Of a stretch of DNA of 64,000 bases, positions 1-40,619 are shown piece after piece (the first letter of the stretch is position 1; every line of letters starts with the position of its first letter). This DNA comes from Pyrinomonadaceae bacterium (lineage in GTDB: Bacteria > Acidobacteriota > Blastocatellia > Pyrinomonadales > Pyrinomonadaceae): positions 310,001 through 374,000 of the forward strand of contig JANWYH010000002.1 of assembly GCA_025054715.1 (NCBI GenBank), given 5' to 3'. The notes under the pieces were generated by a model that was not told the origin of the DNA, did no database searches, and saw only the letters and a program-made list of their open reading frames with translations. Position numbers and translations under genes: made by a program.

Positions 1-302
1 TAACTACTTTGCCTAAAACACCTAACTATTTCGAAGGTATAACAAGTTTTAATGGTGAGGTAATCCCAGTAATTAATCTAGAAAAATTCATTGAAAAGGT
101 TGATTCTGGCGAAAGTAAGTATTTTGTCGTTATCAGCGCAAACGATAATTTGCTTGCGCTAAAAGTTCGCTTTGTCTGGGATATTGTTTCTATCTCAAAC
201 TGGCGGCAAAAGGCGGATTCTATATTGATAGCAGAGTCCTCTTATAGGCAGAAAGAGCTCTTTCTAATAGATGTAGAAAAGATGGTTTCTTTATTATTAT
301 GA
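1..302 (+). CDS. CheW-like coupling protein, 5' end cut by the window
   Basis: The reading frame is open from the first base, so the start lies outside the window. The visible end reads PNYFEGITSFNGEVIPVINL, which is the typical CheW fold signature (a loop, then a strand entering the second beta barrel, as in EGVxNLRGxVxPVxDL). CheW-type proteins bridge chemoreceptors and the CheA kinase. The TGA stop overlaps the ATG of the next gene (ATGA), so it is translationally coupled to the receptor-like gene. The context (receptor-like proteins and a hybrid CheA) supports a PilI/CheW role in a Pil-Chp or Frz-like chemosensory array. A TTG at position 9 is an in-frame but unlikely start. Confidence 0.8.
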   Translation, partial: TTLPKTPNYFEGITSFNGEVIPVINLEKFIEKVDSGESKYFVVISANDNLLALKVRFVWDIVSISNWRQKADSILIAESSYRQKELFLIDVEKMVSLLL

Positions 303-38826: not shown

Positions 38827-38856
38827 AGAAAAGACAGGCATAGACCTGCCTTTTCT
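38827..38856 (-). terminator. Terminator of the atpI-atpB-atpE transcript
   Basis: A 12-bp stem with one G-U pair (38827-38838 with 38845-38856) and a 6-nt loop. On the minus strand the 3' arm ends with TTTTCT and further T, fitting a rho-independent terminator 11 nt after atpE. The A/T arms make it nearly symmetric. Confidence 0.75.
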
Positions 38857-38866
38857 TCGATTTGTC

Positions 38867-39181
38867 TTACAGTTTTGCAAAGACAATAACCAAAGCAAGC
38901 AGAACTAGAGACTCTATCAGAGCTAGTCCGATAATCATCAGCGTTCTAATGGTGCCTGATGCACTTGGGTTGCGAGCGGCTCCTTCGACAGCTCTGGAAC
39001 CGACGAGTCCTTGTCCGATTGCTCCTAGTCCTGCAGCTATTCCAAATCCGATTCCAGCTGCAAGGGCTTTGTAGGAGCCAACCGTGTTTTCATTATCGGC
39101 TGCACCTTGAGCCATTACTGACGTGGCAGTTAAAGCCAGAATAACAAACATCCAAACAATGTTCTTTAGGTATTTTTTCAT
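38867..39181 (-). CDS. atpE: ATP synthase F0 subunit c with N-terminal signal-like extension
   Basis: The protein has 104 residues. The first about 25 (MKKYLKNIVWMFVILALTATSVMAQ) look like a cleavable signal, absent from most short c-subunits but seen in some phyla. The two-helix hairpin follows: helix 1 with GIGFGIAAGLGAIGQGLVGSRAVE, loop AARNP, helix 2 with Glu90 in IGLALIESLVLLAL as the ion-binding carboxylate. Gln57 and Ser91 align with side-chain ligands of Na+-type c-rings. AGGAGAG precedes the ATG. It is the last gene of atpI-atpB-atpE, separated from atpB by an unusually long spacer with possible RNA structure. Confidence 0.95.
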   Translation of the reverse strand: MKKYLKNIVWMFVILALTATSVMAQGAADNENTVGSYKALAAGIGFGIAAGLGAIGQGLVGSRAVEGAARNPSASGTIRTLMIIGLALIESLVLLALVIVFAKL

Positions 39182-39230
39182 ATTCTTCTCTCCTTTTTGT
39201 TTGTTCGTTTTTCTCGGCTTTACTGCTTGA

Positions 39231-39319
39231 GAAAAGGTTACTTATGATGCCGTCAACTTCCGGTATGCTGTCGTGCTATCCTGGGGGACGCACCGCTCCT
39301 GAAGCGTGTTGACCTTTTC
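39231..39319 (-). promoter_or_regulatory. Candidate structured RNA element in the atpB-atpE spacer
   Basis: The 175-nt gap between atpB and atpE contains nested pairings. An outer helix has arms GAAAAG/CTTTTC (39314-39319 with 39231-39236). It is continuous on one side with GTCAAC/GTTGAC (39308-39313 with 39252-39257). Inside are CGCT/AGCG (39303-39306 with 39294-39297) and GTGC/GCAC (39290-39293 with 39273-39276), lying directly next to each other. The segment is visibly G/C-richer than its flanks. It could set atpE translation or mRNA stability, since c is needed in many copies. It matches no riboswitch consensus I can recall. Confidence 0.4.
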
Positions 39320-39356
39320 AGTATCAAATACCTTTTCTTTCTGCAGAGCCGAAAAC

Positions 39357-40214
39357 TTATGCCGCAGCGACTTCATGTGAATGAACTTCGCCTTCATGTG
39401 GTGGATGCGAAACTTCGCTTATGTAAATCATAGAAAGTAACGTGAATACTAATGTTTGAACCAGTGCTATAAAAATTGCCAAAGGTAGCAAGATCATCGG
39501 CACTAAAAATTGTGTAAATGGCGGAAACAGATTTGAAATTATAGAAGCTATTTGTTCATCGGCATACATATTTGCAAAAAGTCGTATACCAAGTGTGAAG
39601 GGACGAATCAAGTTGCTAAAGAGTTCTATCAAAAAGATAAGCGGAGCTATCCACCAAATTGGACCTGCAAGATGCCCCAGATGAGCTATAAGCCCATTTT
39701 CCTTGATGCCTATGTAATTGTAATAGACGAAAGAAGTAATGCCTAAAGCTAAAGTAACGTTTATGTTTGCCGTAGGCGACATGAAAAGTGGGAAAAGTCC
39801 CATTAAATTTGAAATCAGTATCAGGCAAGCAAAAGTTGCTACAACAGGAAAATACTTAAATCCGTGTTCGCCGATAACGTCCTTTACTAAATCTTTTAGA
39901 ACAAGAAATGACGATTCTAAAGTAAGCTGTCCGCTGGATGGATCGTCTTCGGATAACTTACCTTTTAGAATCCAAATCGTTGCAACCGTTAAAAGGCAAG
40001 CAATTATGAACATTATCGTGTACCATGGAATAGCATTTTCCGGCGAGTATGGACCAAAAACTTTTTCAGCAGATGTTCCAAAATGACTGAAAATGTATTT
40101 GTCCCAGATGGGTTTTGTGTAAGCTATCTGAAACTTATAGACTGGCTCGCCAAGGTAATAATTTACAAACTCGACTATCAATGGTGTATGATGACCACTT
40201 GCTCCTGCTAACAT
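39357..40214 (-). CDS. atpB: ATP synthase F0 subunit a
   Basis: The protein has 285 residues. After a long periplasmic N-terminus come membrane helices beginning WYTIMFIIACLLTVATIWIL, and the conserved PVVATFACLILISNLMGLFP, then LIELFSNLIRPFTLGIRLFANMYAD, which contains the essential Arg of the proton path (RLFANM), and the C-terminal LPLAIFIALVQTLVFTLLSMIYI. It forms the stator half-channels. It is immediately downstream of the atpI-like gene. F1 genes and subunit b are not in this window, so the operon is split. Confidence 0.97.
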   Translation of the reverse strand: MLAGASGHHTPLIVEFVNYYLGEPVYKFQIAYTKPIWDKYIFSHFGTSAEKVFGPYSPENAIPWYTIMFIIACLLTVATIWILKGKLSEDDPSSGQLTLESSFLVLKDLVKDVIGEHGFKYFPVVATFACLILISNLMGLFPLFMSPTANINVTLALGITSFVYYNYIGIKENGLIAHLGHLAGPIWWIAPLIFLIELFSNLIRPFTLGIRLFANMYADEQIASIISNLFPPFTQFLVPMILLPLAIFIALVQTLVFTLLSMIYISEVSHPPHEGEVHSHEVAAA

Positions 40215-40619
40215 TTATGTTCTTTCCTTTGCTGTAAAAGTTTTTATTGCTAGAGTGAATCCTTCTAAAATGATTGATGCTGGAAAAGCTAGAAAACCAA
40301 GCATCACAGCGATTATTGATATATTCTCGGAGAAATAGCTTTTCAAAAGGAAAACCAAAACTGCTACAACCAGGTATTTGAGAAGATATATGAAAGCTCC
40401 AGACAAAGAAGCTTCTTCTGCTTTTGCAGCCTTTTCAAGGATATACCTTACCGAAAAATCAAGCCAAAAGTAATTAAGAAAGGACAAGACTCCACCTATG
40501 AAAAGACCAAGCGTAAACCTGCTGTCTGCTAAAATAAAACTTAAAAAGACAGTGAAAAGCAAAATTAGAGCCGTTCTTTTTAGAAGTTTTTTGTCGCTTT
40601 CTTCTAGCTTCAGTTTCAT
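40215..40619 (-). CDS. atpI: AtpI-like small membrane protein
   Basis: The protein has 134 residues with four hydrophobic helices (about 15-30, 35-52, 72-92, 98-120). Weak similarity to the ATP synthase protein I family (LGLFIGGVLSFLNYFWLDF). AtpI is thought to help c-ring assembly or Mg2+ uptake. Its position directly before atpB is the main evidence. The ATG has no Shine-Dalgarno sequence and is only about 10 nt from a -10 element, so the mRNA may have almost no leader. Confidence 0.75.
   Translation of the reverse strand: MKLKLEESDKKLLKRTALILLFTVFLSFILADSRFTLGLFIGGVLSFLNYFWLDFSVRYILEKAAKAEEASLSGAFIYLLKYLVVAVLVFLLKSYFSENISIIAVMLGFLAFPASIILEGFTLAIKTFTAKERT

Follow-up and report, generated by a model that had tools for sequence, protein, structure and literature searches.

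The c subunit of ATP synthase is needed in many copies per enzyme, and the stoichiometry of the a and c subunits is unequal. In the Escherichia coli unc operon, the intercistronic region before atpE boosts c-subunit translation by means of a short U-rich enhancer. The RNA element described here is likewise intercistronic and precedes atpE, but it forms a conserved fold of 75 to 95 nt. Transcripts of the Clostridium cellulolyticum c-subunit gene are processed at both the 5' and the 3' end of the gene and reach a level 3 to 5 times that of the neighboring genes, according to the available part of the source (PMC4423207). The setting resembles that of our element in that processing of the F-type ATPase operon leaves c-subunit mRNA above that of neighboring genes; what the same partial text describes is stem-loops at processing sites (PMC4423207), whereas our element has near-invariant internal loops and class-wide compensatory evolution, and its processing is only putative. 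As far as the available text of that report goes, the C. cellulolyticum gene is the closest functional precedent that we have seen.

The Na+-I riboswitch (DUF1646 motif) is, like our element, a structured RNA tied in some bacteria to ATP synthase genes, with which it is sometimes linked, and its phyla include Acidobacteria (PMC9337991, available part). It differs in that it is predicted to form two extended paired substructures (PMC9337991, same part), and our element has no Rfam match; Na+ sensing by the element is only a guess. Acido-1 and Acido-Lenti-1 are also conserved RNA motifs from Acidobacteria (PMC2864571, available part), but they are separate families, neither of which matches the element in Rfam scans. 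One relative's locus (L057) carries Acido-Lenti-1 RNA at two places within 2.5 kb before atpB (175-219, plus strand; 42-87, minus strand), one above and one below the gathering score. RNA of the mycobacterial atpB-atpE locus has served as a test substrate in a study of RNase E (PMC10641625, available part).

The window, the whole 64,000-nt stretch of DNA analyzed here, comes from a member of the Pyrinomonadaceae, which belong to the class Blastocatellia of the Acidobacteriota. The features of the locus are as follows.

39182..39356, minus strand: atpB-atpE spacer RNA, whole element including the outer stem and the atpE ribosome-binding site (z -4.40, 0/200 shuffles)
38867..39181, minus strand: atpE (c subunit), putative target (Pfam ATP-synt_C, 6e-13)
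39357..40214, minus strand: atpB (a subunit), 5' neighbor of the spacer (Pfam ATP-synt_A, 2.5e-48)
40215..40619, minus strand: atpI-like gene, immediately 5' of atpB (Pfam ATP-synt_I, 9.5e-10)
38816-37788, minus strand: lpxK, beyond the hairpin 3' of atpE
39190..39193, minus strand: Shine-Dalgarno (SD) sequence GGAG of atpE

The 175-nt spacer (39182-39356) had been assigned to the interval between atpB and atpE in the original prediction, and Pfam assignments of the flanking genes bear this out. Gene order on the minus strand is atpI-like, atpB, spacer, atpE, a terminator-like hairpin, and lpxK. Two genes of the b-subunit family lie on a different contig of the genome, so the locus in the window is a short F0 cluster. 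We infer that the element is transcribed, probably in the atpB-atpE mRNA of an atpI-atpB-atpE unit. A promoter scan found about as many sites as expected by chance. On the minus strand of this part of the window, sites resembling terminators begin at 40415, 39802, 39655, and 38851, none of them inside 39182-39356; an intrinsic terminator or attenuator was ruled out for the window, as its spacer has no GC-rich hairpin with a U run. The terminator-like hairpin between atpE and lpxK (38836-38851) has T-rich tails on both strands.

Read as mRNA (minus strand), the spacer has a minimum free energy (MFE) of -50.3 kcal/mol and a z score of -4.40, which none of 200 shuffles equals; the plus strand has a z score of -2.44, equaled by 3 of 200 shuffles. 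The claim of a structured spacer therefore holds on the transcribed strand. Its description as G/C-rich is accurate only in relative terms: G+C is 45% in the spacer, 51% in the core, and 60% in the inner part (39252-39313) versus 39% in the window, and 9% of 175-nt windows reach the spacer value. Both sets of complements that had been named, GTCAAC/GTTGAC and GAAAAGGT/ACCTTTTC, are present. The GAAAAG stem had been drawn as continuous with GTCAAC; GAAAAGG occurs in two copies on the 5' side of the spacer, and helix P1 is built from the distal one (39330-39338) in the MFE fold as well as in the comparative model, which leaves a conserved internal loop. Two inner stems had been placed side by side. 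One, GTGCGTCC..GGATAGCAC, corresponds to P3; the other, CGCTT/GAGCG, appears in the single-sequence MFE fold and is not kept by relatives, among which 53% of its cells are paired, with zero double changes (16 sequences). There, CAGG pairs with CCGG instead (93.9% of cells paired), which gives one continuous arm. What relatives conserve is thus a single long, irregular arm, and the exact multibranched topology is not confirmed. Forced on the window sequence, the conserved fold has an energy of -48.2 versus -50.3 kcal/mol, a cost of 2.1, so by the energy model both inner folds lie close together in the window.

Spacers of relatives share the core. An AtpB protein search gave 58 loci, those labeled L031 to L063 being titled Acidobacteria, Pyrinomonadaceae, or Blastocatellia. 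Script-called spacer lengths were 175 to 409 nt in loci L001 (the window) to L063 and the family loci and 135 to 660 nt in other families of the class; outgroup spacers were short (1 to 77 nt, 18 loci). We used three covariance models: R1, from 16 subtype A sequences including the window; R2, from 14 subtype B sequences; and R3, from 79 sequences. The R1 and R2 structures were written by hand, and the model then realigned the sequences to give alignment A6, which holds the 79 of 85 source sequences that matched; the sequences missed are L044, L045, L049, L063, and L106, all matched by R1, and L061, in which the element was seen by eye only. A joint MAFFT alignment of subtype A and B rows (A2) was discarded, P2 being apparently about 2 columns out of register, and the consensus folds that RNAalifold derived from MAFFT alignments were weak, with indels separating the two subtypes.

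The conserved core spans about 75 to 95 nt, of which the window spacer is a local version. From the outside in, the comparative model consists of P1, an internal loop (NAUA/AUNAUA), P2, P4 (CNGG/CCGG), an internal loop (AG/NAUA), and the P3 hairpin. P1 is not conserved in sequence, and many subtype B members have an extra hairpin after the first NAUA. In the window, the parts lie as follows.

39240..39329, minus strand: conserved core, R1 match of 71.6 bits (window in the training set); the R3 match is 39239-39320, 32.5 bits
39347..39355, minus strand: outermost stem, 5' strand (UUUUCGGCU), pairs with 39211-39219, 89% complementary
39211..39219, minus strand: outermost stem, 3' strand (AGCCGAGAA), pairs with 39347-39355
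39330..39338, minus strand: P1, 5' strand (AGAAAAGGU), 9 bp with 39230-39238; own flanks better than foreign
39230..39238, minus strand: P1, 3' strand (ACCUUUUCU), pairs with 39330-39338
39322..39325, minus strand: outer internal loop, 5' side (GAUA); AUA in 16/16 A3 rows, less regular in subtype B (by eye)
39242..39248, minus strand: outer internal loop, 3' side (AUCAUAA; AUNAUA); U, A, and U invariant in 79/79 A6 rows
39308..39313, minus strand: P2, 5' strand (GUCAAC; GCCCGC in most subtype A relatives), compensatory changes, pairs with 39252-39257
39252..39257, minus strand: P2, 3' strand (GUUGAC), compensatory changes
39298..39301, minus strand: P4, 5' strand (CAGG; class-wide mostly C-A/U-GG); both G in 79/79 A6 rows
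39260..39263, minus strand: P4, 3' strand (CCGG); C100 and C101 in 79/79 A6 rows, G103 and G104 in 99%
39262..39268, minus strand: inner internal loop, 3' side plus flanking bases (GCAUACC); invariant at both A of AUA, A-G opposite at 39296-39297
39273..39293, minus strand: P3 hairpin (GUGCGUCC-CCCA-GGAUAGCAC), in the window fold and similar in L002 and L035

The window's own P3 hairpin falls in gapped A6 columns and is seen in the window fold, L002, and L035. Across A6, the P3 helix is paired in 99.1% of cells, with double changes in 7 of 7 pairs. Bases invariant in all 79 rows are the two G of CNGG, the G two positions after them, both A and both C of AUACC, and G115, U119, A121, and U122. 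At one P4 position (A or U opposite G), just 37 of 79 rows form the pair.

Conservation and covariation in close relatives, on the lack of either of which the original prediction was to be given up, are both strong. In A6, 90.0% of cells are paired versus 78.2% after shuffling and 26.7 to 44.1% with slid partners, and 16 of 18 pairs show double changes. The A6 alignment is fitted to the R2 structure, which inflates these counts to some degree; the slid, shuffled, and re-paired controls share that lean. On a FastTree phylogeny of AtpB covering 77 of the 79 rows (L047 and L144 left out), we counted 45 double-compensatory events versus 0 to 5 for slid partners and a mean of 4.4 (maximum, 22) for re-paired 3' columns. 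The six strongest covarying column pairs in A6 are all model pairs, and the seventh is not; the weak pairs are 16-107, which pairs in 33 of 79 rows, and 28-103, which pairs in 37 of 79. G-U cells number 209 versus 27 A-C cells, an excess that indicates an RNA read from the gene (coding) strand.

R1 matched 87 of 119 family genomes (E ≤ 1), R2 matched 79 of 162 class genomes (E ≤ 0.1), and R3 matched 130 of the 162 Blastocatellia genomes (E ≤ 0.1). The R3 count includes at least two off-site chance matches: the one in G094 has no atp genes around it and no AtpB match in the assembly, and the one in G157 is on contig 846 while its atpB is on contig 262. Among 396 genomes drawn from the phylum, R2 had 14 matches at E ≤ 0.01, all inside the class, and R3 had 37, of which 36 were within the class. 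The sole match outside it (G503; 24.1 bits, E 0.056) is on contig 30, with atpB on contig 19, and is probably due to chance. A few outgroup loci from other phyla gave no confident match with the element models. Because filters were stricter in the genome searches and R3 overlooks diverged members even within the class, restriction to the class is tentative.

Matched genomes nearly always had one match; a second, mostly weak, was found in some search in G031, G032, G033, G034, G059, and G133. This near-constant single match per genome carrying the element rules out a mobile repeat. G031, an incomplete metagenome-assembled genome, has two confident matches (C43:2377-2451 and C121:215-289), possibly from a second atpB-atpE locus or mixed strains. 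We fetched 100 match loci (L089 to L188, some repeating one place), and in 94 the element lies between atpB and atpE on the same strand. Two more (L099 and L144) have atpB before the element and a contig edge before any atpE, and four (L159, L161, L162, and L163; 23 to 27 bits) have no atp genes and are chance matches. We also examined 21 of the 32 class genomes that had no R3 match: 8 had no AtpB match (E ≤ 1e-8), 2 had atpB cut at a contig edge, and 11 had readable spacers. With filters off, R3 found the element in six of these (L189, L195, L196, L199, L200, and L207; E ≤ 0.013). Weak R3 matches lay at the right place in L206 (E 0.19) and L205 (E 1.2), and the element was visible by eye only in L192, L194, and L203, as in L061. 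Some lineages may have lost it.

At the nucleotide level, a search with the spacer in 97 relatives gave a convincing match only in a congener (G001; 89% over nt 44-123), the remaining matches being short and chance-like, and a search of plasmid records gave no match. The L061 spacer, in which R2 and R3 give no match, appears by eye to carry the inner hairpin region as a degenerate tandem duplication (GGAGC ... CUUUCCCAAAAG ... GAAUCC twice). In L051, L053, L055, L056, and L058, predicted folds show long near-perfect inverted repeats in the 5' part of the spacer, just past the atpB stop; these are perhaps intergenic repeats inserted beside the element.

The structure is real, conserved, and unmatched in Rfam 15. 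At the gathering score, no family fell on the element in the window; at E ≤ 10, the spacer matched only a microRNA model, far below threshold and on the opposite strand. Scans of relatives (10 at E ≤ 2, a further 10 at E ≤ 2, and 10 at the gathering score; 29 distinct, L058 being scanned twice) placed no family on the core. The covariance models of DUF1646/Na+-I, Acido-1, Acido-Lenti-1, and the known ribozymes gave no match on the element in the window or the 29 relatives. The remark that the spacer fits no riboswitch consensus thus survives comparison with Rfam. L203:407-737 (minus strand) has a sub-threshold match to the cspA thermoregulator (57.2 bits, threshold 78; E 4e-12), in a genome assembly of two contigs and 3.7 Mb. 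In the literature, an atpB-atpE RNA of this class was not recognized among the matches listed (titles and abstract openings). None of the looked-up terms was found in the available parts of PMC11109978, PMC8632094, and PMC6429828.

Analyses of the flanks and the SD sequence covered 76 of the 79 A6 rows; L121 was left out (mis-called atpE start, with the match outside the called spacer), and L047 and L144 have no called spacer. The 3' flank was long enough in 70 rows, and an SD sequence was recognized in 74 (none in L046 and L105). Outer-stem flanks pair better with their own partner than with that of other species (-29.3 versus -21.8 kcal/mol; p = 7e-13, n = 70), and 37% of loci are individually within the best 5%. 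In energy models of subtype A (n = 31), the probability that the atpE SD is unpaired is 0.17 for the 3' flank without the 5' part versus 0.43 for shuffled sequences (p = 4e-6); for the full RNA it is 0.41, versus 0.19 with foreign upstream sequence (p = 1.5e-6). The "other" group (n = 13) shows the effect of its own upstream sequence (0.44 versus 0.26, p = 0.003), but its SD masking does not exceed that of shuffled sequences (p = 0.25). In subtype B (n = 30), there is neither masking (p = 0.96) nor an effect of the RNA's own upstream sequence (0.42 versus 0.43, p = 0.41). The SD of the window is equally open in the full RNA and without the 5' part (0.65/0.63), as is that of its congener L002 (0.50/0.51), and no anti-SD was seen in the window's own genus. 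An SD switch as a class-wide explanation was dropped because it failed in subtype B and the window; the models support it for subtype A, and it is not a feature of the window sequence.

We propose that the spacer is a cis-acting structured RNA of the atpB-atpE mRNA, a new family of the class provisionally named atpB-atpE RNA, whose loops bind and whose arm sets atpE translation; we hold this reading tentatively, with slightly less than even confidence. The element is probably a cis-regulator of c-subunit synthesis acting by posttranscriptional control of atpE. A ligand or protein may bind in a pocket made by the two conserved loops, and formation of the arm would decide how well atpE is translated. 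In subtype A, the strand after P1 (such as GUCUUC, AUCUUC, or UCUCCUG) has two alternative predicted partners, the 5' arm and the atpE SD, and the folded arm should therefore open c-subunit translation. Since no anti-SD was seen in the window's genus, the arm there may work through a different platform, be it mRNA stability, processing, or the initiation of translation; alternatively, the switch may have been lost. The suggestion that the spacer sets a high c-subunit yield is thus supported indirectly as regards an effect on atpE, by its fixed place before atpE and by SD exposure in the subtype A models; the exact fold suggested for it is not the conserved one.

Possibly, although we find it doubtful, the element is a new class-restricted riboswitch with the c-ring gene as its sole known target, which would sense a bioenergetic signal (Na+, a nucleotide, or a membrane-energy metabolite), free the anti-SD, and tune c-subunit synthesis. 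A conserved, covarying, aptamer-like domain does lie upstream of the controlled gene in the mRNA, and a mutually exclusive platform is seen in the subtype A models and partly in the "other" group, not in the window, L002, or subtype B. Riboswitches often occupy several loci; our element is found at one locus type only, which we counted against the reading proposed above. AtpE residues, mostly Q with ES or ET in the window's family and mostly D with ET in other families of the class, may mark an ion site with two carboxylates. The signature was rejected as an argument for Na+ sensing, because Desulfovibrio-like AtpE without the RNA also has Q with ES. Nearly all AtpE sequences of the window and its relatives have a signal-peptide-like N terminus. 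A protein could occupy the loops instead: an ATP synthase subunit, ribosomal protein, or RNA-binding protein that represses or activates atpE, much as in ribosomal-protein leaders. Autoregulatory leaders likewise occur in near-single copy beside a constant target, but there is no candidate protein and the element resembles no Rfam leader family in the scans, and we regard such a site as rather improbable.

The arm might instead work without any ligand, marking or protecting a processed end so that atpE mRNA exceeds atpB mRNA (selective RNA processing and stabilization). The structure lies between genes of one complex with unequal stoichiometry, precisely where the a gene is followed by the gene of the many-copy c subunit, and the window and subtype B have no SD switch; C. 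cellulolyticum, with a c-subunit transcript 3 to 5 times its neighbors in the available part of PMC4423207, is a precedent. Protective stem-loops need stability, whereas here G-G-x-G, AUACC, and AUNAUA hardly vary among the 79 rows, and we consider this account unlikely, though worth serious attention. A compact arm with conserved internal loops between two open reading frames would also suit a self-cleaving ribozyme separating the atpB and atpE messages, but no Rfam ribozyme matches the element, and small ribozymes are scattered, unlike this single fixed locus in one class; this is very unlikely. Slightly less weight still falls on the spacer as the source of a trans-acting small RNA: a stable, conserved RNA of about 90 nt does lie within the mRNA, yet the two sides of the outer stem are coadapted and the element stays on the upstream side of atpE. 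Least credible of all is that the structure arose by chance, or that the stretch is retained for reasons at the DNA level, with no RNA function. Single-sequence folds are common in spacers, but compensatory changes, the G-U bias, and class-wide retention contradict it.

It has long been asked how bacteria obtain many c subunits per a subunit from a single mRNA, and in this class a dedicated conserved RNA is apparently fixed at that junction. Our analysis yields a defined RNA with near-invariant bases and a testable anti-SD switch before a core bioenergetic gene. Even if there is no ligand, atpB-atpE RNA would be an intraoperon stoichiometry element with compensatory evolution across the class. 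Should a ligand emerge, the RNA would rank as a riboswitch dedicated to the ATP synthase rotor, and, were that reading true, cells could adjust the supply of c subunits relative to the rest of the enzyme.
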